Source: Buchnera aphidicola (Aphis gossypii) (lineage in GTDB: Bacteria > Pseudomonadota > Gammaproteobacteria > Enterobacterales > Enterobacteriaceae). Taken from it: a stretch of DNA of 64,000 nucleotides. Shown piece by piece: positions 13,650-31,699 of the stretch. Each line of letters opens with the position of its first letter. Position 1 is the stretch's first letter. The notes below the pieces were generated by a model, which made no database searches, was not told where the DNA came from, and saw only the letters and a program-made list of their open reading frames with translations. The stretch spans positions 496,001 through 560,000 of the forward strand of contig NZ_CP056771.1 in assembly GCF_013394915.1 (NCBI RefSeq), given 5' to 3'. Made by a program: the position numbers and the translations under genes.

Positions 13650-14502
13650 ATGTACATTATTTTTCCAAAAATTAATCCCATTATTTTTTCTATTGGTCCT
13701 TTTACTGCTCGCTGGTATGGTCTTATGTATGTTATTAGTTTTATTTTCGCTCTTTTATATGGAAAAAAATTGTTAAAAAAAAACAAAAAAAATCAAAATA
13801 GAATCTTTTCTATACACTGTTTTTTTAGGTTCTTGCATTGGAGGTAGAATAGGATATATAATTTTTTATAATTTTTCATATTTTTCTAAACATATGTTAT
13901 GTATATTGCATGTTTGGGAAGGTGGTATGTCTTTTCATGGAGGGTTAATAGGGGCAATTATTAGCATGTATTATATTTCTATAAAACACAAAATTAAAAT
14001 TTTTATTCTTTCAGACTTAGTAACTGCTCTAACGCCTTTTGGTTTAGGCGCTGGAAGATTAGGAAATTTAATTAACGAAGAATTATATGGACGTATCGCG
14101 ATTAATTTTCCATATGCAGTACTTTTTCATAGCACAAAAAATCAAGATTTAGCACTAGCATTAAAATTTCCCCAATTACAATCAATAATAGAAAAATATG
14201 GAACATTACCTCGTCATCCTTCTCAAGTTTATGAATGCATTTTAGAAGGAGTTTTGCTGTTTTTAATAATATACTTATATAATCAAAAAACAAGACCTAT
14301 AGGAAGTAGTAGCGGTTTATTTTTAGTGAGCTATGGAATATTAAGAATTATTTCTGAAGTATTTCGAGAACCTGATCCTCAAATTGGGCTAATTCAAAAT
14401 TGTATTACAATGGGTCAAATTTTATCAATTCCAATGATTATATTTGGATTAATTATTATATTTATATCTTTTTACAAAAAATCTAATTTTGAGACGTTAT
14501 GA
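13650..14502 (+). CDS. lgt: Prolipoprotein diacylglyceryl transferase, frameshifted at poly(A)
   Basis: Lgt transfers diacylglycerol from phosphatidylglycerol to the lipobox cysteine of prolipoproteins in the inner membrane. The first 45 codons ([15 protein letters not shown]) are in one frame and the rest, from [11 protein letters not shown] through [21 protein letters not shown] and PSQVYE, is in the +1 frame. The switch lies in an A9-C-A8 run at 13775-13792; removing one A gives a 283-aa protein (E. coli 291) that aligns throughout. Both parts are well conserved, so the gene is probably still used, with transcriptional slippage restoring frame in part of the mRNA. Otherwise it is a very recent pseudogene or a homopolymer error. 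It overlaps thyA by 4 nt (ATGA), as adjacent genes do in E. coli. Confidence 0.88.
13775..13792 (+). repeat. A9-C-A8 tract at the lgt frame change
   Basis: Nine A, one C, eight A. Upstream codons read correctly into the tract and downstream codons read correctly out of it one base later, so the sequence has one A too many (or two too few) for a continuous lgt frame. Confidence 0.85.
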
Positions 14503-15293
14503 AAAAATACTTACAGTTAATAAAAAAAATAATTAAATATGGAAAATTAAAAAACGACCGCACTGGTACAGGAACACTATCTATTTTCGGACATAATATA
14601 AGATTTAATTTAAGAAAAGGATTTCCTCTTGTTACAACAAAGAAATGTCATACACCCGCTATTATTCATGAACTTTTGTGGTTTCTCAAAGGAGAAACTA
14701 ATATTAAATATTTGAATGAAAATAAAATATTTATTTGGAATAATTGGGCTGATCAATTTGGAAATCTTGGTCCTATTTATGGAAAACAATGGCGAAGTTG
14801 GAATGCATCAGATGGAAAAAAAATTGATCAAATAAAAAACGTAATAAAAAAATTAAAAAAAGATCCTAATTCTCGTAGAATATTAGTGTGCAGTTGGAAT
14901 GTTGGAGAAATAGATAAAATGTCTTTACCTCCTTGTCATGCATTATTTCAATTTTATGTATTTCAAAATAGATTAAGTTGTCAATTATATCAACGTTCTT
15001 GTGATGTTTTTCTGGGGTTACCATTCAATATAGCAAGTTATGCAATGCTTACGCATATGATAGCACAACAGTGTAATTTTGAAGTTGATGAATTTATATG
15101 GACAGGTGGTGATATTCATTTGTATAAAAATCATCTTGCATTAGCTAAAAAACAACTTCTTCGAAATCCTCGAAAATTACCACAATTAATAATATTAAAA
15201 AAACCTAATTCATTGTTTGATTATGTTTTTGAAGATTTTAAAATTATTAATTATAATCCTCATCCTGCCATTCGCGGCGAAATATCTGTATAA
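14499..15293 (+). CDS. thyA: Thymidylate synthase
   Basis: It methylates dUMP to dTMP with methylene-tetrahydrofolate. It is 264 aa, exactly the E. coli length. Conserved parts are visible: the phosphate-binding KNDRTGTGT near the N-terminus, the catalytic cysteine in [11 protein letters not shown] (about residue 146), the arginine-bearing [14 protein letters not shown] and the folate/dUMP segment HLYKNH. Its ATG overlaps the lgt stop, so translation is likely coupled; the lgt frameshift could therefore affect ThyA output. Confidence 0.98.
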
Positions 15294-15360
15294 AATCTTA
15301 ATAATTCATTTCTTTATTCAAATAAAGTATTTTAAAAATAGGATTAATATAATTAAAAAA

Positions 15361-16680
15361 ATGAAAAATATATATATTAAGACTTGGGGTTGTCAAATGA
15401 ATGAATATGATTCGTCTATGATAACAAAAAATTTAGAAAGTACAGGTCAATATTTAATTACTGAAAACTGTGAGCAAGCAGATATCTTAATTTTAAACAC
15501 TTGTTCAATAAGAGAGAAAGCTCAAGAAAAACTTTTTCACCAATTAGGAAGATGGAAAAAATTAAAAGATAAAAACTCTAATATTATTATCGCTGTTGGC
15601 GGTTGCGTAGCAACACAAGAAGGCGAAGAAATTTTTAAAAGATCTAGATATGTAGATATTATATTTGGTACTCAAAGTTTACATAAATTACCTAAAATGA
15701 TTGATGAAGCAGAAAAAAACAAAAAATTTGTTATTGATATTAGTTTTCCTAAATTAGATAAATTTAATTATTTTTTACCAAACAAAAGTACAGGATATAC
15801 AGCATCTGTTTCCATCATGGAAGGTTGTAATAAATATTGTTCATTCTGTGTAGTACCATATACAAGAGGAAAAGAAATTAGTCGACCGTCTGACGATATT
15901 TTATTTGAAATCACAAATTTAGCTGAAAATGGTATAAAAGAAATTAATTTATTAGGACAAAATGTAAATGCATATGAAGGCCCAACTTTTGATGGAAAAA
16001 TTTGTTTTTTTTCTGAATTATTACGATTGATTGCTGAAATAGATGGAATTGAAAGGATTCGTTTTACCACAAGTAATCCACTTGAATTTAGTGACGATAT
16101 TATTGAAGTATACAAAGATACGCCCAAATTAGTTAGTTTTTTACATTTGCCTGCACAGAGCGGTTCTAATAAAATATTACAACTTATGAAAAGATCATAT
16201 ACTACTGAGGAATATGAAAAAATCATTGAAAAACTAGTCAAAGCACGTCCAAACATTCAAATTAGTTCTGATTTTATTGTCGGTTTTCCAGGGGAATCTA
16301 AAGAAGATTTTGAAGAAACTATCAATTTTATAAAAAAAATTAATTTTGATATGAGTTATAGCTTCATATATTCAAGTCGACCAGGAACACCCGCGTCAGA
16401 AATGAAAGATGAAATTGATCTTCAAGAAAAAAAAGAACGTTTGTATATATTACAAAACTGTATTAGTAAACAAACCATGTCTTGGAGTAGAAAAATGCTG
16501 GGAAGCCAGCAACATATTTTAGTAGAAGGTGAGTCAAAAAAAAATCCTAGACAATTATATGGAAAAACAGAAAACAATAGAATTGTTAATTTCTATGGAC
16601 CACGAAAAACGATTGGCCAATTCGTTAAAGTTAAAATAAATGAAGTACATACTCATATTTTGAATGGCACTTTATTATAA
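15361..16680 (+). CDS. miaB: tRNA-2-methylthio-N6-dimethylallyladenosine synthase
   Basis: MiaB is a radical-SAM methylthiotransferase that converts i6A37 to ms2i6A37 in tRNAs reading UNN codons. From the chosen ATG it is 439 aa (E. coli 474). Order: an UPF0004 N-terminal domain with [11 protein letters not shown] and two more Cys for the auxiliary cluster, the radical-SAM CxxxCxxC in [18 protein letters not shown], and a C-terminal TRAM domain. The same frame is open back to 15217 inside thyA, but the ATG at 15361 gives [15 protein letters not shown], collinear with the E. coli start. YgfZ, which supports MiaB in E. coli, is also in this window. Confidence 0.96.
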
Positions 16681-16687
16681 AAAATAT

Positions 16688-17148
16688 ATGAAAAAAAAAA
16701 TTGTTTTATTTTAAACATACAAATAAATTGTAAAAATAAAAAAAAAATACCAAAAAAAATAATGTTTGAGAAATGGATAAGAAAAGTATTATACAAAAAA
16801 AACATTACCATTATTACTATTAGAATAGTAGATGAAACAGAAATAAAAAATTTAAATTTCAAATACAGAGGAAAAAATTGTTCGACAAATATTCTATCTT
16901 TTCAATTAAATTTTTTTATACAGAAAAATATAAGATTATTAGGGGATTTAGTTTTGTGTAAAAAAATTATAGAAAAAGAATCTATACAATACAAGAAAAC
17001 ATTAGAATCTCGCTGGGCCCATATGATTATACATGGTGTTCTGCATTTATTAGGATATGATCACAAAAATTGTAAAGAACAAGAAATTATGGAAAAAATA
17101 GAAAATAAAATCATGTTATCTTTAAATTATGACGAACCATATTACTAA
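16688..17148 (+). CDS. ybeY: Endoribonuclease YbeY, 5' end frameshifted at A10
   Basis: YbeY is a zinc endoribonuclease used in 16S rRNA maturation and ribosome quality control. The metal site HGVLHLLGYDH is present. A simple frame from the ATG at 16762 would give 128 aa and lack the N-terminus, but the same frame is open upstream and encodes ILNIQINCKNKKKIPKK, which aligns with residues 5-21 of the E. coli protein. The only sensible start is the ATG at 16688, which is followed by A10 (16691-16700); one extra A joins it to the frame and gives 153 aa (E. coli 155). So either slippage adds an A, a near-cognate codon is used, or the base is a sequencing error. It lies 7 nt after miaB and before ybeX as in E. 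coli. Confidence 0.85.
16691..16700 (+). repeat. A10 tract at the ybeY frame change
   Basis: Ten A directly follow the ATG at 16688. Reading A11 gives a start of MKKKNCFILNIQ in the conserved YbeY frame; reading A10 gives a stop after nine codons. Confidence 0.8.
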
Positions 17149-17240
17149 AAAATTAATAATTATTGACAAAAATTATTTTAACCTAAGATTTTCTAACATA
17201 GAATAGTAAAATATATTTTTAAAATAGATAACTAAATATT

Positions 17241-18104
17241 ATGAGTGAAAAAGATGCAAAAAGCTTAGAAAAAATTAACAAAAAAGGTTTTTTTTCTATT
17301 TTATTAAATCATATATTTCATGATGAACCTAAAAATAGAGAAGAATTACTCGCGTTAATTAGAGATTCGGAACAAAATGAACTAATTGATCAAGATACAT
17401 GTGATATGTTAGAAGGTGTAATACATATTGCAAAGAAAAAAATTAAAGAAATAATGATACCTAGAACACAAATGATAATATTAAAATTAAATTATAATTT
17501 AAATAAATGTCTTGATATCATTTTAGAATCTGCACATTCACGTTTTCCAGTAATGAATAGCGATAAAAACTATGTAGAAGGGTTTTTGATAGCAAAAGAT
17601 TTATTATCATTTATGAAAAACTCAAATAAAGATTTTCATATTAAAAATGTATTAAGACCAGCAGTCGTTGTTCCTGAAAGTAAATATGTGGATCAAATGT
17701 TAAAAGAATTTCGTTTAAAAAGAACACATATGGCAATAGTAATAGATGAATTTGGAGGGGTTTCTGGATTAGTAACCATAGAAGATATTTTAGAATTAAT
17801 AGTTGGAGAAATTGAAGATGAGTACGATGAAGAAGAAAAAATAAACATTCGTAAATTACAAGAAAATATATTTTCTATCAAAGCACTTACCGAAATAAAA
17901 GAATTCAATGATTTTTTTAAGACTCATTTTAGCAGCGAAGAAGTAGACACTGTTGGTGGATTAGTAATGAAAGCATTTGGACATTTGCCTAGTTATGGAG
18001 AGGACATTAATATCAATGGATACAATTTTAAGATATCTTCAGCAGATAGCAGAAAAATCATACAAATACATGTCACCATTCCAGAAAACAAAACTTTAAA
18101 ATAA
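17241..18104 (+). CDS. ybeX: CBS-domain transport-associated protein YbeX (CorC family)
   Basis: Family members are linked to magnesium/cobalt efflux and, in E. coli, to ribosome metabolism; the molecular role is not settled. It is 287 aa (E. coli 292). An N-terminal acidic segment is followed by two CBS repeats (about residues 70-190; IMIPRTQMI begins the first, IVIDEFGGVSGLVTIEDI ends the second) and a C-terminal CorC/HlyC domain with VDTVGGLVMKAFGHLP. There are no membrane segments, so it is the soluble type. It follows ybeY by 92 nt; the apolipoprotein N-acyltransferase gene lnt that follows it in E. coli is not next here. Confidence 0.93.
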   Translation: MSEKDAKSLEKINKKGFFSILLNHIFHDEPKNREELLALIRDSEQNELIDQDTCDMLEGVIHIAKKKIKEIMIPRTQMIILKLNYNLNKCLDIILESAHSRFPVMNSDKNYVEGFLIAKDLLSFMKNSNKDFHIKNVLRPAVVVPESKYVDQMLKEFRLKRTHMAIVIDEFGGVSGLVTIEDILELIVGEIEDEYDEEEKINIRKLQENIFSIKALTEIKEFNDFFKTHFSSEEVDTVGGLVMKAFGHLPSYGEDININGYNFKISSADSRKIIQIHVTIPENKTLK

Positions 18105-18296
18105 AACATAAAAAATATCTTATTATCTTATGTTTATTTAAGATATTTATATTCATAAAAATTATTTTTAATACAAATGAATCTAAAATTTTAATCGCTT
18201 ATTTAAAATTGATTAAAAACAATGTTTTATCTTTTTTATAAAATTAAAATTTTTATCTATTTTAAAAAAATATAAAAATTATTCTAGAGAAAAATT

Positions 18297-20885
18297 ATGG
18301 AACAAGAATATTGCCCGAAAAATATTGAAAAATATGTGCAAAAATACTGGAAAGATAATAAAACTTTTCATGTTTATGAAGATAATACAAAGGAAAAGTA
18401 TTATTGCCTTCCTATGCTCCCGTATCCATCTGGAAGACTGCATATGGGACATGTTAGAAATTATACTATTAGCGATGTCATTGCAAGATATCAGAGGATG
18501 TTAGGAAAAAACGTTTTACAACCTATTGGTTGGGATGCATTTGGATTACCTGCAGAAGAAGCCGCTATTAAAAACAATATAGAACCATCATCTTGGACAT
18601 ATAAAAATATTGCATATATGAAAAAACAGCTGGAGTTACTAGGTTTTAGTTATGATTGGGATAGAGAAATAACTACGTGTAATCCAGAATATTATAAATG
18701 GGAACAATGGTTTTTTATTCAATTATATAAAAAAAAATTAGTTTATAAAAAAAATAGTTTTATAAATTGGTGTCCTCATGATAAAACTGTATTAGCGAAT
18801 GAACAAGTTATTAATGGTTGCTGCTGGAGATGTCAAAGTACTATTGAAATAAAAAAAATACCGCAATGGTTTATAAAAATTAGACATTATGCAGAATCTT
18901 TATATAAAGATTTAGATCAATTAAAAAACTGGCCTGAAAAAGTAAAAAATATGCAAAAAAATTGGATTGGCAGATCAAAAGGATTTGAAATTTTTTTTAA
19001 CATCCAAAACACCAACAAAAAAATTAAAATATTCACTACTAGAATAGATACTATAATGGGGGTTACATATATTGCGATATCTCCTTTTAACAAGTTTTCT
19101 ATATATCTTTCAAAAAAAAACAAAACACTAAAACAATTTATCGAAAAACAAAACAATGCAAATTTTTCTAGAGAGGAAATAGAAAAAATAAAATTTCAAG
19201 GAATAAATACTAACATGTTTGCTGTTCATCCTATAACACAAAAAAAAATACCTATTTGGATAGCAAATTTTGTTATTAATGGTTATGGTTCCGGGGCAGT
19301 TATGTCAGTTCCCGGACACAATGAAAACGACTGGAACTTTGCTATAAAAAATAATCTAAAAATTAAATATGTTATTCAGAAATCTACTAAAAAAAATATA
19401 AAATTAGTTGAAAAAAAATTTTTTCCTGAAAAAGGAAAATTAATTAACTCGAGGGAGTTTGATCAGCTTAATTATGATGATGCAACTAAACAAATAAAAA
19501 AAAAATTATCAGAAGAAAAAAAGATAAAAACAAAAATTGTTTATAAATTACAAGATTGGTGTATATCTAGACAACGTTACTGGGGAGCACCTATTCCAAT
19601 GGCCACATTAAATAATGGAAAGATCGTTCCAATACCAGAACAAGACTTACCTGTTTTATTACCAGAAAATAAAAAAGATTTTAATTTATTAAATAATCCT
19701 TCAAATAATCAATCTAGTTACTATAATACTTCTGTTAATCATCAAAATGCAATTCGAGAAAAAGATACTTTTGATACATTTATGGAGTCTTCTTGGTATT
19801 ATGCAAGATATACCTGTCCTCATTTTAAAAAAGGAATGATTAATCCTTTAGCATCAAAATATTGGTTACCTGTAGATCAATATATTGGAGGAATAGAGCA
19901 TGCTATTATGCATCTCATGTATTTTAGATTTTATCATAAATTGTTACGTGATTTTAAACTTGTTCCATTTGATGAACCAGTAAAAAATTTAATATGTCAA
20001 GGAATGGTTTTATCAGAAGCATTTTATCAAATTGGTAAAAATAATGAGCGTAATTGGATTCATAAATCTAATGTCAATATTCAAAAAAATATAAAAGGAG
20101 AAATTGTTAAAGCACAAGATAAGATGGGAAAAGAAATTATATATGCTGGAATGATTAAAATGTCTAAATCTAAAAATAATGGCATTGAACCAGAACTAAT
20201 TATAAATAATTATGGAGCCGATACAATTCGATTATTTATTATGTTCGCTGCTCCTGTAGAAGCATCATTAGAATGGAGTGAATCTGGACTAAAAGGCGTT
20301 TACCGATTTTTAAAAAAACTATGGAAATTATCTTTTGATTACATTCAAACAAAACACAAATATAGAAATATAAATTTTAATTTATTAAGTAAAAAACAAA
20401 AAAACATGTGTCATATATTACATAAAACAATCTATCAAGTTTCTGATGATATTAGTCGTAGACAATCTTTTAATACTGCTATTGCTAAAATAATGGAATT
20501 AGTAAATATATTAAGAAAGTTTAAATTAGAAAGTGAAGAAGATAAATGTATTATGAAAGATTCATTAATATCAATCACAAAAATGCTTTATCCATTTACG
20601 CCGCACTTATGTTTTATGATATGGAAAAATTTAAATAAAAGCTTTTTAATAGATCATGAAAAATGGCCGATTTTTCAAAAAAATTTCTTGTTAAAAATAA
20701 ATGATATATTAGTTGTTCAAATTAATGGGAGAAAGAAATTAACTATAGAAATACCAGATAACCTTATAAAAAAAGAAATTATTTCTTATGTTAAAAATAG
20801 TTCATTATTGCAGAAAAAATTAGAAAACAAAAATATAAAAAAAATAATTTATATTCCGAAAAAAATAATTAACTTTGTAATATAA
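18297..20885 (+). CDS. leuS: Leucyl-tRNA synthetase (class I)
   Basis: It charges tRNA-Leu and edits mischarged amino acids. It is 862 aa (E. coli 860). The HIGH-type motif is PSGRLHMGHVRNY (about residues 42-54), the CP1 editing domain follows (GSGAVMSVPGHNENDW), and the KMSKS loop is KMSKSKNNG. The C-terminal tRNA-binding end is complete. TAGAGA precedes the ATG. The 192-nt gap after ybeX has weak A/T inverted repeats (18104-18148) that may end upstream transcription. A10 at 19496-19505 keeps frame here. Confidence 0.98.
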   Translation: MEQEYCPKNIEKYVQKYWKDNKTFHVYEDNTKEKYYCLPMLPYPSGRLHMGHVRNYTISDVIARYQRMLGKNVLQPIGWDAFGLPAEEAAIKNNIEPSSWTYKNIAYMKKQLELLGFSYDWDREITTCNPEYYKWEQWFFIQLYKKKLVYKKNSFINWCPHDKTVLANEQVINGCCWRCQSTIEIKKIPQWFIKIRHYAESLYKDLDQLKNWPEKVKNMQKNWIGRSKGFEIFFNIQNTNKKIKIFTTRIDTIMGVTYIAISPFNKFSIYLSKKNKTLKQFIEKQNNANFSREEIEKIKFQGINTNMFAVHPITQKKIPIWIANFVINGYGSGAVMSVPGHNENDWNFAIKNNLKIKYVIQKSTKKNIKLVEKKFFPEKGKLINSREFDQLNYDDATKQIKKKLSEEKKIKTKIVYKLQDWCISRQRYWGAPIPMATLNNGKIVPIPEQDLPVLLPENKKDFNLLNNPSNNQSSYYNTSVNHQNAIREKDTFDTFMESSWYYARYTCPHFKKGMINPLASKYWLPVDQYIGGIEHAIMHLMYFRFYHKLLRDFKLVPFDEPVKNLICQGMVLSEAFYQIGKNNERNWIHKSNVNIQKNIKGEIVKAQDKMGKEIIYAGMIKMSKSKNNGIEPELIINNYGADTIRLFIMFAAPVEASLEWSESGLKGVYRFLKKLWKLSFDYIQTKHKYRNINFNLLSKKQKNMCHILHKTIYQVSDDISRRQSFNTAIAKIMELVNILRKFKLESEEDKCIMKDSLISITKMLYPFTPHLCFMIWKNLNKSFLIDHEKWPIFQKNFLLKINDILVVQINGRKKLTIEIPDNLIKKEIISYVKNSSLLQKKLENKNIKKIIYIPKKIINFVI

Positions 20886-20897
20886 AAAATTTTTAAA

Positions 20898-21929
20898 ATG
20901 GTATGTACTTATGAAATTTATACACACAGAAGAATTAAAAAAAAAATAATCAAAAAACTAAATTTTTTTTATATTCTCTTAGGAGAAGATTTAATTTTAC
21001 TGAATAATAATCAGAAAATAATATTAAATTTTGCTAAAAAAGAATACTTTAAAGAAAATTATATTATTAATATCGAAAAAAACACAGATTGGAATAAAGT
21101 TATAAATTTTTATAATTCAAATGATTTATTTTTTAAAAAAAAAGTTTTAGTGATAAATTTAACTATAAAAATTTTTAATTCTGTATTGATAAAAAATATA
21201 AAAAAATTATTTTTTATTAAAAATATCGATATATTAACAATAATTAAATTTAATCAATTGTCTAATAATTTCAAAAACTATTTATCAACACAAAAAAAAG
21301 TATTTAATATTGATATTATATGGTGTTTTACACCATATGGTACAAATTTTAAAAACTGGTTAAGATATGAAATAAAAGATAAAAAAATAGAAATTACTAA
21401 AAATGCTTTTTTTTTATTATTCAAAAATTATGAAGGTAACACTTTGTTTATATATCATATATTAAACATGATAATACTTATATGGAAAAATGAAAATGTT
21501 ACTTCGCAAAAAATTAAGTATATTATTAATGAATTTGCTGTTTTTACTCCGTCAGACTGGGTAAATGCAATTTTCTACAATGAAATAGAAAAAGCTTTTT
21601 ATATACTAGATATTTTTCGAAAACAAAAATATAATCCTCTTATTTTAACAAGAGCTTTGCAAAAAGATTTATTAAAATTAATTTACATAAAACGTGAAAA
21701 GATAACAAATATAAATTTATTTTTTAAACAAAATAAAATTTTTTTTAATAGATTAAAATTCTTTAAATTTGCAATTAAATCAATAAATTTTGATAATTTT
21801 CTTAAAGTAATTAGAATTTTGTTACAAATAGAGATGAAAATAAAAGAAGAATATAATTCTGATATATGGATAGAATTAAAAACATTAATATTATTACTAT
21901 CTTTAAACATAAAAAAAATTAAAACATAA
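20898..21929 (+). CDS. holA: DNA polymerase III delta subunit, 5' end frameshifted at A10
   Basis: The delta subunit opens the beta clamp within the clamp loader. From the first ATG the frame is open for 343 aa, but its first 16 residues (MVCTYEIYTHRRIKKK) do not resemble HolA. An ATG at 20911 in the next frame gives MKFIHTEELKKK, which after one extra A in the A10 at 20937-20946 continues as IIKKLNFFYILLGED and aligns without gaps with the E. coli start (MIRLYPEQLRAQ...YLLLGND). That restored form is 339 aa (E. coli 343). The body is conserved, including NTDW and FTPSDWVNAI. Whether translation uses the accidental upstream ATG or slipped mRNA cannot be decided. leuS ends 12 nt upstream and nadD begins 5 nt downstream. 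Confidence 0.88.
   Translation: MVCTYEIYTHRRIKKKIIKKLNFFYILLGEDLILLNNNQKIILNFAKKEYFKENYIINIEKNTDWNKVINFYNSNDLFFKKKVLVINLTIKIFNSVLIKNIKKLFFIKNIDILTIIKFNQLSNNFKNYLSTQKKVFNIDIIWCFTPYGTNFKNWLRYEIKDKKIEITKNAFFLLFKNYEGNTLFIYHILNMIILIWKNENVTSQKIKYIINEFAVFTPSDWVNAIFYNEIEKAFYILDIFRKQKYNPLILTRALQKDLLKLIYIKREKITNINLFFKQNKIFFNRLKFFKFAIKSINFDNFLKVIRILLQIEMKIKEEYNSDIWIELKTLILLLSLNIKKIKT
20937..20946 (+). repeat. A10 tract at the holA frame change
   Basis: Ten A separate the frame that starts at ATG 20911 from the frame encoding the rest of HolA; A11 would join them. Without the extra A the 20911 frame meets TAA directly after the tract. Confidence 0.8.
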
Positions 21930-21934
21930 CAAAA

Positions 21935-22563
21935 ATGAAAAAAATACATGCAATATTTGGGGGCAATTTTGATCCTATTCATTATGGACATATTCTTTCC
22001 GCAGAAAAATTAGCAAAAGAAATTTCAATAAAAAAAATTATATTATTACCTAATGAAAATCCTCCTCATCGATCTAAAACTAAAACATCTCTAATGCATA
22101 AACTAAAAATGATCGAATATGCTATTCAAGATAAAAATTTATTTGAAATTAGTTTATTAGAAACAAAAAAAAAAAATTCTATACTATAGAAACATTAAAA
22201 AAAATAAGACTAAAAATCGGATTTTTACAACCGTTATGTTTTATAATAGGAGAAGATCATATAAATCATTTAAATATCTGGAAGAATTGGAAAGAAATAT
22301 TATCATACGCTCATTTATTGATTCTTCCACGAAAAAGCATAAAAAAATATAATAACGAACTAGACAAGTGGATTTCCTTACATACGATTAAAAATACAAG
22401 TTATCTACATCAGAAATCATGCGGATTTATCTTTTTTTCATCTATACCAACTATAGAAATTTCTTCTACTCAAATAAGAAAAAATTTTGCTAATGGTGAA
22501 AGTTTAAATGGATTGCTACCTAAAAAAGTAGAAAAATATATTATTTTAAAAAATTTATATTAA
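21935..22563 (+). CDS. nadD: Nicotinate-mononucleotide adenylyltransferase, frameshifted at A12
   Basis: NadD adenylylates nicotinate mononucleotide in NAD synthesis. The first 80 codons carry the nucleotidyltransferase motif FGGNFDPIHYGH and end in ETKKK; the frame then meets TAG at 22187. The remaining protein, FYTIETLKKIR through IIGEDH, the ISSTQIR motif and the C-terminus, lies one frame back. The join is at A12 (22165-22176): one more A (or two fewer) gives 209 aa (E. coli 213) aligned throughout. Both halves are conserved, so it is likely functional through polymerase slippage. Read naively it appears as two fragments (21935-22189 and 22318-22563). NadD is essential in E. coli. Confidence 0.9.
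22165..22176 (+). repeat. A12 tract at the nadD frame change
   Basis: Twelve A between codons that align with E. coli NadD on both sides. A13 or A10 would give a continuous frame. Confidence 0.88.
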
Positions 22564-22608
22564 AAATTAGTTTATTTTAAAAATTTTAGATAGTTAAATT
22601 GGTACACG

Positions 22609-22845
22609 ATGAAAAAAACAAAAATTATATTAAACTTAATTGGACTTAAATGTCCAGAACCAATTATGGTAATTCGAAAAACAATTAGAAAAATAAAAAA
22701 ACATGAAACTATATTAGTTATATCAGATGATCCATCCACTAAAAGAGATATTCCATATTTTTGTAAATTTATGAAACACCAACTTATCGAATATTTTATT
22801 CATATAAAACCATATCGTTATATATTAAAAAAAGGAATTAATTAA
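22609..22845 (+). CDS. tusA: Sulfur carrier protein TusA
   Basis: TusA accepts persulfide sulfur from IscS and hands it to TusBCD-TusE for 2-thiouridine synthesis in tRNA. It is 78 aa (E. coli 81). The active cysteine is C15 in LKCPEPIM, followed by the conserved [14 protein letters not shown] and the C-terminal YRYILKKG. It ends the plus-strand run and is followed by a 15-bp hairpin. Its relay partner TusE is also in this window, 24 kb away. Confidence 0.95.
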
Positions 22846-22894
22846 AATATACTGTATAAAGTTAATATGAACTTTAAATAATTAAATTTTAAAA

Positions 22895-22927
22895 AATTAA
22901 TATACACACAAAGTGTGTATATTAATT
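22895..22927. terminator. Perfect 15-bp hairpin between convergent tusA and asd
   Basis: 22895-22909 is exactly complementary to 22913-22927 with an AAA loop; the core contains ACACAC/GTGTGT. On both strands the stem is followed within a few bases by a short T run (GAATTTTT on the plus strand, TTTTAAAATTT on the minus). Its place between two converging genes makes a bidirectional terminator the best reading. Confidence 0.65.
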
Positions 22928-22952
22928 GAATTTTTATAATATTTTCAAAAAA

Positions 22953-24068
22953 TTAAATATTAGTTAATAAATTTAACATTCTTCTCAAAGGTTCTGCAGC
23001 ACCCCATAGCAATTGATCTCCTACGGTAAAAGCTGAAAAATATTTCTCTCCTATACTAGATTTTCTTAATCTTCCTACTGGTATATTTAATGTACCAGTC
23101 ACTGCAGATGGAGTTAATTTAGATATTGTTTCTTGCATATTATTTGGAATTAAATTAACCCATGTATTATGATTAGCAATGATTTCTTCTATATTTTTTA
23201 ATGAAACATTTTTACTTAATTTCATTAAAATTGATTGACTGTGGCATCTTATTGAACTTATACGAACACATATTCCATCTATTTTTATTATATTCTTAGA
23301 ATTTAATATTTTATTTGTTTCAAATTGCCCTTTCCACTCTTCTTTACTTTGGCCTGTTCCCATATCGCTATCTATCCATGGTATTAAACTTCCAGCTAAA
23401 GGAACAGAAAAATTTTTTAATGGAAAATTATTATCTTGAATTATTTTTGTAACTTTTTTTGTAATTTCTAAAATTGAACAAAAATTATTAGATAAATCTT
23501 CAGAGACAGCATTATATAATGAACCCATTTGTTTTAATAATTCAATTACATATTTAGCACCTGCTCCTGAAGCTGCCTGATAAGTAGATACATAAATCCA
23601 TTCTATTAAGTTTTCTTTGAATAACCCACCTAGAGCTATAAGCATTAAGCTGACAGTACAATTACCACCTACGAAAGTTTTAATACCATGACTTATAGCT
23701 TGATTAATCGATTCTAAATTAATGGGATCTAGCACAATAACAGAATCATCTTTCATTCTTAAAGTAGAAGCAGCATCTATCCAATAACCATTCCAGTTAT
23801 TTTTTCGCAATTTAGAATAAATAGAATCAGTATACGATCCTCCTTGGCATGTCACAATAATATCCATTTCTTCTAATAGATTAAGATTATAAGCATTTTT
23901 AAGGTTTTTAAATGTTATGTTATTTATAGTAGGTCCATTTTGACCTATTTGAGAGGTTGAAAAGAAATGAGGAATAATTTTTGAAAAATCATTTTCTTCA
24001 ATCATTCGATTTAATAAAACTGAACCTACCATACCGCGCCAACCAACAAATCCAACAGATTTTATCAT
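22953..24068 (-). CDS. asd: Aspartate-semialdehyde dehydrogenase
   Basis: Asd reduces aspartyl phosphate to the semialdehyde, the branch point to lysine/diaminopimelate, threonine and methionine. From the ATG at 24068 it is 371 aa (E. coli 367) and begins MIKSVGFVGWRGMVGSVL, with the NADP-binding loop at the N-terminus. The catalytic cysteine is in FVGGNCTVSLM and the catalytic histidine in the segment RCHSQS. A TTG at 24098 would add ten residues absent from E. coli, so it is not used. It is divergent from yhgN. It feeds LysA, also encoded here. Confidence 0.96.
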   Translation of the reverse strand: MIKSVGFVGWRGMVGSVLLNRMIEENDFSKIIPHFFSTSQIGQNGPTINNITFKNLKNAYNLNLLEEMDIIVTCQGGSYTDSIYSKLRKNNWNGYWIDAASTLRMKDDSVIVLDPINLESINQAISHGIKTFVGGNCTVSLMLIALGGLFKENLIEWIYVSTYQAASGAGAKYVIELLKQMGSLYNAVSEDLSNNFCSILEITKKVTKIIQDNNFPLKNFSVPLAGSLIPWIDSDMGTGQSKEEWKGQFETNKILNSKNIIKIDGICVRISSIRCHSQSILMKLSKNVSLKNIEEIIANHNTWVNLIPNNMQETISKLTPSAVTGTLNIPVGRLRKSSIGEKYFSAFTVGDQLLWGAAEPLRRMLNLLTNI

Positions 24069-24368
24069 TAATAAACGTACGGAGTTTTTAAAAAACAAAA
24101 TTTTTATTGAACTATAACAAAAAAATTTTTAGTAAAAACTTTCCGACCTCCGAAAATAAATATAGTTATTGTATAATTTTATAAGGGATAACTATTTACG
24201 AAAAGATTAAATCTTATTTGAATTTTAATATACTATAAAATTATATATTTATTAAAAATAATATTGATATATATTAAAATATTTATATAGTGTAGAAAAT
24301 TTATATTATTTTTATATAGACTATATAGTTAAAAAATTCATATCTAAACAAGGATATAATAAATTAAA
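24069..24368. other. 300-nt divergent spacer between asd and yhgN
   Basis: It is nearly all A/T except for one GC-rich block, TTCCGACCTCCGAA (24141-24154), which contains TCCGA twice, 7 nt apart. A perfect -10-like TATAAT lies at 24172-24177 on the plus strand without a good -35 at the right distance. Promoters for both genes must lie here; no operator is recognised. Confidence 0.4.
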
Positions 24369-24956
24369 ATGACCGAAATAATCTCTACAACTATATTATT
24401 AATATTAATAATGGATCCCTTAGGCAATCTACCTGTCTTTATGACAATACTAAAAAATTTAAATGCAAAAAGAAGAAGAATAGTAGTTATACGAGAAATG
24501 ATTATAGCTTTAATTTTCATGCTATTATTTTTATTTATCGGAGAAAAAATACTTAATATTCTTAATTTAAAAACTGAGACAGTATCAATATCTGGTGGTG
24601 TCATTTTATTTTTAATTGCTATTAAAATGATTTTTCCTTCTGAAGAAAACAGTGGAATATCTTCTAACGAAGAACCGTTTTTAGTGCCATTAGCAATCCC
24701 ATTGGTTGCAGGACCATCTTTATTAGCTACATTAATGTTGTTATCTCATCAATATTTACATCACATGTCATATTTAGTAGGATCTTTACTAATAGCATGG
24801 TGTTTTACTATTATAATATTATTATTGTCAGGTTTTTTTTTAAAATTATTTGGTTCTAAAGGTGTAAATGCTTTAGAACGATTGATGGGTTTAATACTAA
24901 TTATGCTTGCAACTCAAATGTTTCTTGATGGAATTAGAACATGGTTTCAAAATTAA
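24369..24956 (+). CDS. yhgN: MarC-family inner membrane protein YhgN
   Basis: It is a 195-aa multispanning membrane protein of the MarC/YhgN family (E. coli YhgN 197). About six hydrophobic segments are visible, the first including the family motif MDPLGNLPVF and a middle one with PLAIPLVAGPSLLATL. The function is unknown; an amino acid or metabolite exporter has been suggested for relatives. Its place next to asd is conserved with E. coli, and retention in so small a genome suggests a transport role, but that is inference. Confidence 0.9.
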   Translation: MTEIISTTILLILIMDPLGNLPVFMTILKNLNAKRRRIVVIREMIIALIFMLLFLFIGEKILNILNLKTETVSISGGVILFLIAIKMIFPSEENSGISSNEEPFLVPLAIPLVAGPSLLATLMLLSHQYLHHMSYLVGSLLIAWCFTIIILLLSGFFLKLFGSKGVNALERLMGLILIMLATQMFLDGIRTWFQN

Positions 24957-25101
24957 ATAAATTTTTATTTTAAAAATTAATTTTTTTATTTAAAGATAAA
25001 ATATTATCTATTTTATACTACCTTTTATTAAAACTAACTAATAACAGGTAGAAGTATATCATTAAAATTTTGATAAAAATTAAATTCAAAAAGAGGTTTT
25101 T

Positions 25102-26271
25102 GTGAAAATACAAAATATAAATGAAATAAATATAACAGAAAAAAGAGTTTTAATAAGATGCGATTTAAACGTTCCTATTCAAAATGGAGTTATTCAATCT
25201 GATGCTAGAATATTGGCTTCACTTCCTACAATTGAATTAGCTCTTCAAAAAAAAGCGAAGGTAATTGTTATGTCGCATTTAGGAAGGCCAAAAAGTGAAT
25301 CTTATGAAAAAAAATATTCGTTATTTCCTGTATTTGAATATATAAAAAAAAAAATAGACTACACTAAAGTATATTTTACGGAAAATTATTCAAAAATTGA
25401 CTTAATTAATCCAGGAGAACTATTAATTTTAGAAAACGTTCGTTTCAATTCAGGTGAACTTAAAAATGATAAAATTTTATCTAAAAGATATTCTAAATTA
25501 TGCGATATTTTTGTCATGGATGCTTTTGGCGCAGCACACAGGAAACAAGCTTCAACATACGGTATTGGAAAATTTGCAAAAATTGCATGCGCCGGTCCTC
25601 TTTTAATATCTGAAATAAAAATGCTGAAAAAAGCGTTAAAAAACCCAAAACGCCCTATGGTGTCTATAGTAGGAGGATCTAAAGTTTCAACTAAATTTAA
25701 TGTATTAAATAATTTATGTGATATTTCAGATACTGTGATAGTAGGAGGTGGAATAGCTAACACTTTTTTAGCAATTGATTACGATGTAGGTAAATCATTA
25801 CACGAACCAGAATTTATATTAATAGCAAAAAAATTACGTGATAACTATAATAATATTATTACGCCAATTGATTCTCGTGTCGGAAAGAATTTTTCTGAAA
25901 CAGAACAATCTATAATTAAATCACCGTCAAAAATTAAAAAAAACGAAGAAATTATGGATTTTGGTGATAAAACTATAAAAAAAGTTGTTAAAATAATTGA
26001 AAAAGCAAAAACAATTATTTGGAATGGGCCGGTAGGAGTATTTGAATTTCCGAACTTTCGTATAGGGACAGAAAAAATCGCTAAAGCGGTCGCAAACAAT
26101 TCTAACTTTTCAATAGCTGGAGGCGGCGATACACTATCTGTTATTGATATGTTTTGTATCAAAGATAAAATTTCTTATATTTCAACAGGAGGTGGTGCAT
26201 TTTTAGAATTTATTGAGGGAAAAAAATTACCTGCAATAGATATGTTAGAAAAAAATTTTTCTCAACAATAA
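25102..26271 (+). CDS. pgk: Phosphoglycerate kinase
   Basis: It makes ATP from 1,3-bisphosphoglycerate in glycolysis. It is 389 aa (E. coli 387). The N-terminal domain shows RCDLNVPIQNG and SHLGRP, the hinge region VGGSKVSTK, and the nucleotide part NGPVGVFE and AGGGDTLS. The start is GTG with AAGAGG 7 nt upstream. It keeps frame through an A11 tract at 25344-25354. fbaA follows as in E. coli, although epd, which precedes pgk there, is not adjacent. Confidence 0.98.
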   Translation: MKIQNINEINITEKRVLIRCDLNVPIQNGVIQSDARILASLPTIELALQKKAKVIVMSHLGRPKSESYEKKYSLFPVFEYIKKKIDYTKVYFTENYSKIDLINPGELLILENVRFNSGELKNDKILSKRYSKLCDIFVMDAFGAAHRKQASTYGIGKFAKIACAGPLLISEIKMLKKALKNPKRPMVSIVGGSKVSTKFNVLNNLCDISDTVIVGGGIANTFLAIDYDVGKSLHEPEFILIAKKLRDNYNNIITPIDSRVGKNFSETEQSIIKSPSKIKKNEEIMDFGDKTIKKVVKIIEKAKTIIWNGPVGVFEFPNFRIGTEKIAKAVANNSNFSIAGGGDTLSVIDMFCIKDKISYISTGGGAFLEFIEGKKLPAIDMLEKNFSQQ

Positions 26272-26317
26272 CCAAATAATATTTTTTAATTTAAAAATTT
26301 AAATAATAGGAAATAAT

Positions 26318-27406
26318 TTGAATAATTTAAACTCTATTCAACCTGGTGTTGTAACAGGTGACGAATGTCAAGCGATATTTAGATTGGCTAAAAAAAAACA
26401 ATTTGCAATACCAGCAGTAAATTGCATAGGCACTGATTCAATTAACGCTGTATTAGAAACAGCTTCTAAAATAAAATCTCCGGTTATTATACAATTTTCT
26501 TATGGAGGAGCTTCTTTTATTGCAGGTGGTTCTGAAAAGATATTCAGAAAAAATCAAGAACGAGCTATAAAAGGCGCTATATCAGGAGCTAGACATGTAC
26601 ATTTAGTTGCAAAAAACTATAATATTCCGATTATACTACACACTGATCATTGTCATAAAGAAATATTACCATGGATTGATGGGTTAATTAAAGAAGGCGA
26701 AAAACACTATGAAATTTATAAAAGACCTCTTTTTACATCACATATGATTGATCTATCGAAAGAAACACTAGAATATAACATTTCAATTTGTACTTCATAT
26801 TTAAAAAAAATAAAAAAAATTAATATGATATTAGAAGTTGAATTAGGATGTACAGGTGGAGAAGAAGATGGAATAGACAATAGTAAAATTAATAAAGAGT
26901 TGCTTTATACTGAACCTAAAGATGTTAATTACGCATATGAAAAGTTGATTAAGATTAGTAAAAATTTTACTATAGCTGCTGCATTTGGAAATGTACATGG
27001 AGTTTATAAAACCGGAAATATTCATTTAAAACCTAGTATTCTCAAAGAATCACAAAAATATATTAGTTTTAAACATAATTTAGAAAAACTACCATTAAAT
27101 TTAGTATTTCATGGAGGATCAGGATCAAATCTCAAAGAAATTAAACAATCTATTAAATATGGCGTAGTAAAAATGAATATTGACACTGATATACAATGGG
27201 CTGCTTGGAAAGGTGTTCTAAACTTTTACAAAAAAAACAAAGATTTTTTGCAAAGTCAAGTAGGAAATATAAAAGACAATAATCAACCAAATAAAAAATA
27301 TTATGATCCAAGATCTTGGATAAATCAAGCAAAAGAATCCATGTCTATAAGGCTAGAAAAAACATTTCAAGAGCTAAATGCTTCAAATATTTTACAAACA
27401 CAATAA
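26318..27406 (+). CDS. fbaA: Fructose-bisphosphate aldolase, class II
   Basis: It is a zinc aldolase that cleaves fructose 1,6-bisphosphate. It is 362 aa (E. coli 359). Zinc ligands are seen in LHTDHCHK, the segment after ELGCTGGEEDG and FHGGSGS; the GVVKMNIDTD loop is intact. The start appears to be TTG with TAGGAAA about 6 nt upstream; no ATG is available before the conserved QPGVVTGDE. It lies 46 nt after pgk and before mscS, as in E. coli. Confidence 0.97.
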   Translation: MNNLNSIQPGVVTGDECQAIFRLAKKKQFAIPAVNCIGTDSINAVLETASKIKSPVIIQFSYGGASFIAGGSEKIFRKNQERAIKGAISGARHVHLVAKNYNIPIILHTDHCHKEILPWIDGLIKEGEKHYEIYKRPLFTSHMIDLSKETLEYNISICTSYLKKIKKINMILEVELGCTGGEEDGIDNSKINKELLYTEPKDVNYAYEKLIKISKNFTIAAAFGNVHGVYKTGNIHLKPSILKESQKYISFKHNLEKLPLNLVFHGGSGSNLKEIKQSIKYGVVKMNIDTDIQWAAWKGVLNFYKKNKDFLQSQVGNIKDNNQPNKKYYDPRSWINQAKESMSIRLEKTFQELNASNILQTQ

Positions 27407-27424
27407 ATAATTTATTTTTAAATA

Positions 27425-27450
27425 CGGGGAATAAATAAAAATATTCTCCG
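27425..27450 (+). terminator. Possible hairpin after fbaA
   Basis: CGGGGAATA (27425-27433) pairs with TATTCTCCG (27442-27450), with one G-U pair and an 8-nt loop. It lies 18 nt past the fbaA stop and is conspicuously GC-rich for this genome. No U run follows, so it may be a decayed terminator or an mRNA 3'-end stabiliser. Confidence 0.4.
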
Positions 27451-27556
27451 CAAATTATCGACAGGAATTAATATAATAAAATTCTTAAGAAATTAATTTA
27501 ATATAATTAAGATATTTTAAACTATATATTTATTATCATAAATCAAAGAGGTGACA

Positions 27557-28402
27557 ATGGATGAGCTTAACGTAGTAAGCGATATCAACCATGCAGGTAA
27601 TTGGTTAATACGAAATCAAGAGCTATTATTTGGATACATAATTAATTTAACATCATCTATTGTTATTTTAATTTCTGGTATGTTTGTAGCAAAAATAATA
27701 TCAAATGGAGTTAATAAAATTTTAATTACCCGAAATATTGATGCTACTATTGCAGGTTTTCTTTCTGCATTAATGAGATATATTATTATTACATTTACAT
27801 TGATCGCTGCATTAGGGAGAATAGGTGTTCAAACAACTTCTGTTATTGCTATATTAGGCGCTGCTGGCATGGCTATCGGATTAGCATTACAAGGTTCGCT
27901 TTCGAATTTTGCAGCAGGAGTTCTATTAGTTACACTAAGACCTTTGAAGACAGGAGAATATGTAAATTTAGGAAATGTATCAGGAACGGTTTTAAATATT
28001 CATATTTTTTATACAACATTACGCACTTTAGATGGAAAAATTGTAGTTGTTCCAAATAATAAAATTATTTCTGGAAATATTATCAATTATTCAAGAGAAC
28101 CTGCTCGAAGAAATGAGTTCTCTATTAGCGTTGCATACAATACAGATATTGATTTAGTTGTCAAAGTATTGAGAAAAGTTATAGAAAATGAAGATAGAGT
28201 GATAAAAGATAGGGATATTATAATTGGTTTAAGTGAGTTAGCACCGTCTTCTTTAAATTTTATTATACGATGCTGGAGTAATACAGATGAATTAAATTCT
28301 GTATATTGGGATTTAATGGCTGCATTTAAAAAAGCACTAGATAAAAATAACATTAATATTCCTTACCCACAAATAGATGTTCATCTTTATAAAAAAAAAT
28401 AA
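27557..28402 (+). CDS. mscS: Small-conductance mechanosensitive channel MscS
   Basis: MscS opens under membrane tension to release solutes. From the ATG at 27557 it is 281 aa (E. coli 286). Three membrane segments occupy about residues 25-125; the pore helix TM3 keeps the glycine/alanine pattern (LGAAGMAIGLALQGSLSNFA), followed by the beta domain (RPLKTGEYVNLG) and alpha/beta vestibule. A GTG six bases upstream is in frame, but the E. coli N-terminus (MEDLNVV) matches MDELNVV and AGAGGTG is well spaced for the ATG. Confidence 0.96.
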   Translation: MDELNVVSDINHAGNWLIRNQELLFGYIINLTSSIVILISGMFVAKIISNGVNKILITRNIDATIAGFLSALMRYIIITFTLIAALGRIGVQTTSVIAILGAAGMAIGLALQGSLSNFAAGVLLVTLRPLKTGEYVNLGNVSGTVLNIHIFYTTLRTLDGKIVVVPNNKIISGNIINYSREPARRNEFSISVAYNTDIDLVVKVLRKVIENEDRVIKDRDIIIGLSELAPSSLNFIIRCWSNTDELNSVYWDLMAAFKKALDKNNINIPYPQIDVHLYKKK

Positions 28403-28463
28403 AAAATTTAATTTTTTAATATTTTATTTTTTATAATTTTTTTTAGGAACAAAAGGTTTTTTT

Positions 28464-31400
28464 ATGTTTTTTTTATATAAATTTAATCAATTAAATACAT
28501 TATTTTTAAAAATATGTAAAGTTATTCAAAAAAATCCAATACCATATATCTTTGAAAAAGAAATTATTATTCATGATAACGAAGTGCTGTTTGAATACCT
28601 TAATATGTTCACAGCCAATTATACAGGTATTTCATCAGATTTTAAACTAATACATCCAAAAGTTTTTATTTTCAAGATATTTAAAAAAATTATGCCTGAA
28701 AATGAGGTAAAAAATATTTTAAAAAAAACAACTAATATTTGGAAAATAATGAAAATTATTGAAGAAAATAATTTTTTTGAATTTATTAAAAAAAATGATA
28801 ACACAATCAAAAAGTTTCAATTTTCATCTTTCATACAAGATCTATTCCAAAATTATATTTTATATAGACCCCAATGGATTCAAGAATGGGAAAAAAAAGA
28901 AAAAATAGCATCAAAAATTAATTCAAAAAAATCATGGCAAGAAAAATTATGGAACGAAATTAGAAACGATAATAAAAAGTTTAATCAATCTATTGATAAC
29001 TTTGCAAACCTATTTTATAAATTTAAAAGTTTGATTCAAAAAAAAAAAAAAAAAAAATAACACTTCCAAAACGCATTTTTATTATTTGGTCATTCTCTAT
29101 CAATCCATCATACATAAAAGTTTTTCATGAAATAAGTATATATACTGATGTATATTTTTTATATTTGACAGCTTATAAAAACAATATAATAAACTATGAA
29201 GTTGATTTACACAAAAAATCATGTAATACAGAAACGAAAAATTGTTTTTATAATACATTGGAAGTATTGTGGGGTAAATATGAAAATATTTATTTACTTT
29301 TCATAAAAAATTTAAAAAATATTAAAGTTAATAGTTATTTTAAAAAATATTATGTAAATAATTTATTAAATAATATTAAAAACAACATTTTAAATTTCAC
29401 AACAAACAAAAAAACATTAAAACAAACTTTAGATCCCAAAGATAATTCGATTTCTATAAATACTTGCTATAATAAACAACATGAAATTGAAGTTTTATAT
29501 GCAATCTTAATAAAAATACTCAATAAAAATCCGAGTATAAAACCTCATGATATTGTTGTTACTTCATTTTCTTTAGAAAACTATAAAAAAAATATTAATT
29601 CTGTATTTAAATCACAATATCAAAAAGATAAAATATCTTTTTATATTCATAAAAAAAATTGTAAAAATAAACAAAAAATATTTTATCTATTTAATACAAT
29701 ATTAAATTTATCTCACATTCGCTTTAATAATAAAGAAGTATTAGAATTACTAGACATTCCTATTATATCAAAAAATTTTAATATTTCAGAAGAAGAAATA
29801 AAAATTTTACATAACTGGGTTGAAGTCACAAATATCAGATGGGGGATAGACAAAAAACACACAAATGATTTATTTTTTTTAGATATTGATCAAAATACTT
29901 GGTTTTATGGTATTGAAAAATTATTGATAAGTTATGCTATAAATGAAAAAGACAAAATGTGGAACAATATTCATTCAATTGTTTCTATTGATTTTGCTAA
30001 ATCAGAATTGATAGGAAAATTATCTTATTTAATTAACACGTTAAACAAATGGCGTATAAAGCTATCTAAATCAAAAAAAATTAAATGTTGGCGTTCATTA
30101 TTTCAATCTTTTATAAATGATTTTTTTTATGAAAACATAGAGTTAGATCAAACACTCACAGAAATTAACAAAAAATGGAAAAATATGATTGATAAAATTA
30201 TATTGTCTGGGTATCAAAAAAAAATATTCATTAATGTTTTAAAAAAAAATTTTTTTCATATTATGCAATCTACAAATAATAAAAAATTTCAATTAGGATC
30301 TATAAATTTTTGTCATCCCTCTGTAATATGTTATATACCATTTAAAGTAATATATATTATAGGATTAGGTTCTAAAGAACTACCAAAACCACCAAACTTA
30401 GATCATATTAATCTTTTAAAAAAATATCCATTGGTTACTGATATTGATCATAAAAATACATTATATCATTTATTTTTAAAAAATTTTTTAGCTGCTGAGA
30501 AATATTTTTATATGAGTTATATTGGCTATTCATTAAACAATGAAACTAAAATATATCCATCAATATTAGTTGAGCAACTTGTAAATTATATAATATTAAA
30601 TTTTTGTTTCAAAGGAGATGAAAAATTAAAAACAGAAGACAACACAAGGAAAATATTAGACTTTCTCTATAAAAAACATAAAAAAACACATATCTATAAT
30701 TTAATAAATGTGAAAAAAATAAAAAATGTAAAACAAAATAAAATTCAAAATATTTATCAAACATTCTTTAAAGATACAATTAAATTAGAAAATTTTAAAA
30801 AAAACAATGATTTAATTGATTTAAAAAATTTAATATCTTTTTGGAGACATCCAATACGATATTTTTTTAATTATACGTTAAGCACGAACTTTTCTAAAAA
30901 AAAGATATTATCAATCACTGAACCTTTTACAATAAATCAATTAGAAAATTTCAAAATAAATAATCTTCTATTGGACGATATGGTAAATAAAAAAGATATA
31001 ATAAATACATTAAAAAAAATAGAATTATCTGGAATACTACCATATAAAAATTTTGGAAAAATAACTTTAGAAAAAAAATGTCAAGAACTTAAAGAAATAG
31101 TAAAAATAATTAATCAGTATAGAACTTTTCCTCAAAAAAAAGAATTTTTTTTTCAAATAAAAAAATATTATATTAAAGGAACATTAAAGGAAATACAAGA
31201 CACAGGTTTGCTGCGATGGAAAGGAAGTACAATTAATTATCCTGATCGAATATCATTATGGTTAGAACATTTAGTTTACTGTATTTTAGGGGGTGTTGGA
31301 GAAAGCAAAATTATAGGATGTGATAAAAAAATATTTTCATTTCGATCTCTATCATATAAAGAAGCGCATCATTATCTTTCAATGTATATCATAGGATATA

Positions 31401-31699
31401 TGAAAGGTATTAATACTCCATTATTATTAACAAAATCAGGTTCAGATTGGCTTGATAAGGTATATGACGTAAAAAATCATTGTATTTGTAAAAATCATCA
31501 TATTAAAAAAGAAGGATATAAAAAATTATATAAAAGATGGATAGGCAGTTCTTATATTAAAGGAGAAAAAGAAGATATTTATATACAAAAAATTACCTCA
31601 AAATTAGATGTAAAAAAAATTTGTCATATCTCTAAAAAATGGTTAATCCCCTTATTAAAATACAAAAAAAACAATGAAAAAAAAATTAGACGCTTTTAA
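28464..31699 (+). CDS. recC: Exodeoxyribonuclease V gamma subunit, frameshifted at A20
   Basis: RecC holds the RecBCD machine together and recognises Chi. The first 191 codons read in one frame to a 20-A run (29038-29057), where that frame ends in lysines and TAA. The protein resumes one frame back with ITLPKRIFII and FLYLTAYKNNI, matching the E. coli LPDRVFI...LLFTNPC segment, and continues to the end. With A21 or A18 the product is about 1078 aa (E. coli 1122). A simple reading shows two pieces (28464-29060 and 29165-31699). Because both sides are conserved and recB/recD are intact, RecC is probably made from slipped transcripts. Its end overlaps recB by 26 nt. Confidence 0.9.
29038..29057 (+). 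repeat. A20 tract at the recC frame change
   Basis: Twenty uninterrupted A, the longest homopolymer noticed in the window, lying inside recC. A count divisible by three here would keep a single recC frame; 20 does not. Confidence 0.92.

Follow-up and report, generated by a model that had tools for sequence, protein, structure and literature searches.

Five genes out of frame at A tracts

The window, a stretch of 64,000 nucleotides covering bases 496001-560000 of the single-contig, 628,098-bp genome of Buchnera aphidicola from Aphis gossypii (G000), contains five genes, lgt, ybeY, holA, nadD, and recC, whose reading frames change at long tracts of A (Table 1). The initial annotation placed these shifts at tracts of A9-C-A8, A10, A10, A12, and A20, respectively, and all five tracts are present. 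The sizes of the shifts were also as described: lgt is one base long, and the other four genes are one base short modulo 3. Family profiles recognized the protein on both sides of the tract for lgt, nadD, and recC and downstream of it for ybeY and holA. No additional internal stop occurs along the alignment of any of the five window copies. NadD, HolA, and Lgt are essential in Escherichia coli. A comparison with related genomes indicates that the breaks are real, tolerated, and often long-lived frameshifts at tracts of at least nine A, with the products probably rescued by transcriptional slippage.

In agreement with the initial annotation, the other 48 kb of the window yielded no further break in a genome-wide scan, with the proviso that such a scan can miss breaks near starts and in genes that have no reference. 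One scan match in those 48 kb, recB at 31803, was a window copy that is intact and for which the copy in the sister genome (G028; L010 at this locus and L213 at recB) is broken. The window recB keeps frame at an A10 (31803-31812), and the sister copy is broken at an A10 (G028:C1:488310-488319). The tracts in leuS and pgk that were said to keep frame do so. Comparison of the DNA with plasmids gave 0 matches, and the matches listed by a scan of genome contigs were at 80 loci, all in other Gammaproteobacteria and none in Buchnera.

Table 1. Positions in the window of the broken tracts, the gene parts on either side of them, and two control tracts
Feature	Position	Strand	Remarks
lgt N-terminal part, through A9-C-A8 tract (13775-13792)	13650..13792	+	one base fewer needed; NCBIfam TIGR00544 matches 13650-13847
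lgt C-terminal part, second frame	13777..14502	+	no ATG before 13894 (reference residue 86)
ybeY start ATG (16688) and directly adjoining A10 (16691-16700)	16688..16700	+	one base short
ybeY remainder	16701..17148	+	TIGR00043 on 16762-17148
ybeY site B, A8	16795..16802	+	in frame in the window; orthologous site out of frame in 26/36 genomes
holA start ATG (20911) and A10 (20937-20946)	20911..20946	+	one base short; the long frame offers another in-frame ATG at 20898
holA remainder	20947..21929	+	TIGR01128
nadD N-terminal nucleotidyl transferase part and A12 (22165-22176)	21935..22176	+	one base short
nadD C-terminal part	22177..22563	+	earliest possible start in frame, TTG at reference residue 130
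recC N-terminal part and A20 (29038-29057)	28464..29057	+	one base short
recC C-terminal part	29058..31699	+	family profile
Control leuS A10	19496..19505	+	in frame; leuS unbroken in 36/36 genomes
Control pgk A11	25344..25354	+	in frame; no pgk tract break in 36 genomes

Dependence of the breaks on tract length and gene

Breaks were evaluated in a panel of 36 genomes, G000 and 35 relatives of the same genus. Syntenic stretches of 20 kb were taken from all 35 relatives, and 14 genes were aligned with a frameshift-tolerant alignment. Left uncounted were frame calls that lay 15 residues or fewer from the C terminus (recC of L017 and L020, and nadD of L010, L018, and L019 near residue 211). The neighbor gene yhgN is marC by its other label, and pgk matches part of a longer model only, below the cut-off.

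All five genes are broken at A tracts in several genomes. The lgt gene is out of frame in 16 of the 36 genomes; nadD is broken in 15, with nine breaks at the site found in the window and six at a second site; holA is broken in five; and recC is broken in 11, or in 10 under a tighter rule. The most frequent break is at a second tract of ybeY, designated site B, which is out of frame in 26 genomes. In the clade of 13 genomes around the window every lgt copy is broken, the longest runs being 9-12 A. There is no in-frame copy in that clade, yet the tract flips between one base long and one base short. Because nadD (in L015) and ybeY do have in-frame copies there, the absence of in-frame lgt is suggestive only.

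The lgt, nadD, and holA breaks are common to the window and the sister genome. On the evidence of these assemblies, sequencing error is excluded for breaks shared between species. Least certain among the five are the break at the ybeY start and the A20 of recC, for which reading errors could be responsible. At the ybeY start the sister genome reads ATG-A9-GATTG, in frame, and a similar break recurs only in L014. At the site of the recC A20, L010 and L011 have an A12 in frame, and L015 and L016 are broken.

The frequency of breaks in the five genes depended on the length of the A run. None of 1052 runs of A7-A8 was broken, compared with 8/249 for A9, 50/141 for A10, 10/22 for A11, and 6/14 for A12 or longer. 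A break was credited to whichever A run within 30 nt was the longest; T runs were counted and never credited. Most of the frameshift calls (69/76) lay no more than 6 nt from the run to which they were credited, and 45/76 had a single candidate run. Nine chosen sites provided 169 site-genomes with a run of at least nine, of which 73 were broken, and 153 with shorter runs, of which none was; all 73 broken site-genomes carry a run of at least nine. In contrast, none of the 217 runs of at least nine A in nine neighbor genes was broken. No tract break was found in any of the 36 genomes in leuS, miaB, corC, asd, yhgN, pgk, fbaA, or mscS. The ninth neighbor, thyA, is broken only in L036 (genome G018), in a decayed copy in which two frame calls at one A9 cancel in the length series. 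These results indicate that a break requires both a long tract and a tolerant gene. The initial annotation was right that length alone is not the cause, though in the panel a run of at least nine was always nearby.

Two frame changes fell outside this pattern. In pgk, the sister genome shifts by one base at a G4 (reference residue 118), with no run of A7 or longer within 30 nt; it is either a reading error or a break of a different kind. The recC of L021 is broken near reference residue 800, next to a T7, the nearest A run being an A11 that lies 26 nt further on; this break was not counted.

To count breaks throughout the genome, G000 was scanned against G028 and G029, with 40 kb of the stitched G029 masked; breaks near starts can be missed. 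The scan gave 19 candidates and 16 after the removal of recB (527803), truA (252566), and apbE (287414), in which the reference, not G000, is broken. In addition to the five window genes, the breaks are in epmA, hemD, fliJ, murC, murF (at an A11), lepB, a yedA-like transporter, pyrD, glmM, cysH, and pyrE. Weaker cases among these are fliJ (reference identity of 0.42 to G029 and 0.78 to G028) and lepB (6/19 identical residues after the shift). The cysH gene, for phosphoadenylyl-sulfate reductase, is one base long at an A12 (G000:C1:494243-494254), 1.7 kb before the window. About 16 breaks is an ordinary number, because 18 homopolymeric frameshifts are listed for the Buchnera of Schizaphis graminum (PMC3164680, Table 1).

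The initial annotation gave weight to the clustering of five breaks within 15.5 kb, which was not borne out. Permutation gave a P of 0.0045 with uniform placement and 0.010 when coding A tracts were sampled (0.010 and 0.017 with 18 candidates), for an interval that was picked post hoc. As a post hoc excess the cluster is modest, and the breaks follow the gene more than the region. A regional cause, such as an error-prone stretch or a local mutator, was rejected because the eight neighbors that lie between the broken genes, which with thyA carry the 217 long runs, have no tract break in the 36 genomes, and because the rest of the genome holds another 11 breaks. The region is probably a chance gathering of tolerant genes, and the proximity of the five breaks would chiefly reflect the accident that five such genes are close neighbors.

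Probable slippage and alternative explanations

The sequences on both sides of the tracts are constrained. The ratio of nonsynonymous to synonymous changes (pN/pS), estimated from 12 genome pairs per region, stayed under 1 on both sides of the tract in all pairs. It was 0.07-0.37 before and 0.085-0.31 after the tract in lgt, 0.10-0.60 and 0.20-0.46 in nadD, and 0.22-0.56 and 0.31-0.47 in recC; after the tract it was 0.10-0.39 in ybeY and 0.23-0.48 in holA. When both genomes of a pair were broken, it was 0.07-0.46 on either side (lgt, nadD, and ybeY). The values of broken and intact pairs overlap, and constraint is weakest in recC and holA. These ratios show that both halves are under purifying selection, which argues against decay.

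Transcriptional slippage, proposed in the initial annotation, is the best reading of these results. RNA polymerase would slip in the tract and generate a mixed pool of mRNA, part of which would carry one A more (for lgt, one fewer or two more). Full-length protein would then be made in a reduced amount, which low-dosage enzymes may tolerate and high-demand genes may not. Poly(A) slippage is reported to give 12-50% corrected transcripts in frameshifted symbiont genes, including cell-wall genes of an aphid symbiont (PMC5009743). The tract lies within the stretch that is open in both frames, which in 18 of the 26 ybeY cases spans just 10-19 nt. The direction of the shifts is also consistent with slippage. 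In G000 the shift is one base short modulo 3 at 14 of the 16 breaks, the exceptions being lgt and cysH. Across the panel, only short shifts are seen in holA, at the second nadD site, and at the four recC sites (22/22 site-genomes), and ybeY is short in 24 genomes and long in two. A bias toward short tracts is expected because insertion is the usual RNA error in homopolymers of Buchnera transcripts (151 insertions versus 16 deletions; PMC5574713) and insertions would mend short tracts.

Several observations weigh against rescue by slippage. Long tracts mutate faster, and length dependence alone is therefore no proof of rescue. The length series is also affected by the crediting rule, which favors long runs: for 31 of the 76 frameshift calls, two or more A runs of at least seven lay within 30 nt. 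The one-short bias could come from deletion-biased mutation. The sister genome lacks both the break at the ybeY start and the A20 of recC, and the recC break of L021 may be of another kind than the A-tract class. In lgt, pN/pS of the C-terminal part was 0.09-0.31 in broken pairs versus 0.085-0.18 in four intact pairs, and a mild relaxation of this part is possible. Furthermore, a start at the upstream holA ATG would swap about a dozen N-terminal residues, with no recoding needed. As judged from the reading frames, holA may avoid recoding in this way in the window genome, and rescue by slippage is weakened to that extent. The upstream ATG is also present in L010 and absent in L011 and L016.

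It is also possible, though unlikely, that ribosomes restore the frame by -1 frameshifting on the A tract, with A_AAA_AAA as the slippery sequence. A tract that is one base short fits a -1 shift exactly, as do 14 of the 16 breaks in G000, and in ybeY the zero frame reads TAT AAA AAA AAA, which places A_AAA_AAA in phase. However, lgt is one base long in eight of its 16 broken genomes (and short in the other eight), as is nadD at the window's site in four of nine (short in five), which is the wrong direction if -1 shifting were the only route. Seven A are enough for the heptamer, yet under the longest-run crediting rule no A7-A8 run was broken. There is no consistent structure downstream of ybeY site B in 23 genomes (mean z of -0.42 against mononucleotide shuffles; L029 and L033 are below -2), and the AGG or GGA found upstream in 19 of these 23 traces to a conserved Trp codon and its neighbor.

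A quite improbable alternative is that the genes are pseudogenes on the way out, which no longer work and have not yet decayed. Long tracts are hotspots for insertions and deletions, and homopolymeric frameshifts are usually read as recent inactivations (PMC3164680). True erosion does occur in the panel: nadD and thyA of L036 have several lesions outside the tracts, in contrast to the tract breaks. In contrast to such decay, lgt is out of frame throughout the 13-genome clade with both halves constrained, and the five window copies lack further internal stops.

It is very unlikely that the genes are split, with each half translated from its own start. The long-frame ATG of holA would permit this, and in eight of the 16 broken lgt copies a second-frame TTG or GTG precedes the tract at residue 22-36 (residue 54 in one copy). 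However, second-frame starts are generally far inside the genes, with the first at reference residue 45-132 in 24 of the 26 ybeY genomes and at residues 86 (lgt), 130 (nadD), and 231 (recC) in the window. Splitting nadD would separate the N-terminal transferase from the C-terminal region, both of which are under one family profile.

Sequencing or assembly errors are an extremely improbable source of the breaks as a group: homopolymers are error prone and two of the breaks are missing from the sister genome, but the same sites are broken in different species and errors should also strike the long runs of leuS, pgk, and fbaA, none of which is broken.

The ybeY tract and known systems

Site B lies about 34 residues into ybeY and is exactly A10 in 23 of the 26 genomes in which it is out of frame. 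On a midpoint-rooted five-protein tree, Fitch parsimony reconstructed the site as already broken at the base of the sampled genus and required six frame changes. In 20 small genomes picked from 148 other genera, site B was in frame in 19 and out of frame, at an A11, in L230; three of these genomes (L222, L234, and L238) had a frame call elsewhere in ybeY. The length of the tract changed 1.64 times per unit tree length, compared with 0.5-2.9 for in-frame tracts (18 sites) and 2.0-3.5 for the eight other break-bearing sites. The possibility that the tract is strictly frozen was rejected because its length changes about as often as that of in-frame tracts and parsimony returns it to frame. Long-tolerated slippage is favored over a programmed site. 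It is tentatively conceivable, with the balance of the evidence against it, that YbeY, an RNase of rRNA maturation, is made by programmed slippage, with a presumably ancestral A10 setting the dose of YbeY. Tracts of at least ten would then uncouple the genomic frame from that of the mRNA, and the written frame of low-dose genes might drift almost neutrally.

Rescue of poly(A) frameshifts by transcriptional slippage was reportedly found in Buchnera and Blochmannia by Tamas et al. in PNAS in 2008. The breaks described here resemble such cases, as recounted in PMC3017870 and PMC5009743, in that a gene that is otherwise intact is broken at a long A tract, some breaks are shared between species, and the hosts of the tracts are AT-rich insect endosymbionts. 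They differ in the genes affected (lgt, ybeY, holA, nadD, and recC), in the use of 36 genomes with a length series and neighbor-gene controls, and in being known here from DNA alone. Similarly, Aphidinae Buchnera are described as having 8-18 homopolymeric frameshifts per genome, with the same gene, murF, broken repeatedly in separate lineages (PMC3164680), and that study also raises correction by slippage. Most of the pseudogenes it describes occur in single genomes and arose from homopolymer mutations, whereas many of the breaks in the five genes are shared and constrained. Its main text does not mention ybeY. Site B is also comparable to the dnaX of Thermus thermophilus and the A10 dnaX of Chlorobi (PMC3711429), in which a conserved long A tract is followed by continuation of the gene in another frame. 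Unlike dnaX, the six frame changes of ybeY on the tree suggest that return to frame is possible, and a role for a short product is not indicated.

The comparison turns scattered calls of pseudogenes in a textbook symbiont into a testable set of important genes that many species carry in the wrong written frame even though the proteins remain constrained. The length series, with its threshold of nine to ten A, and the unbroken neighbors give clear predictions for RNA sequencing. If rescue by slippage is true, then annotations and minimal-genome counts in which lgt, nadD, or ybeY is called lost from such genomes would be wrong.

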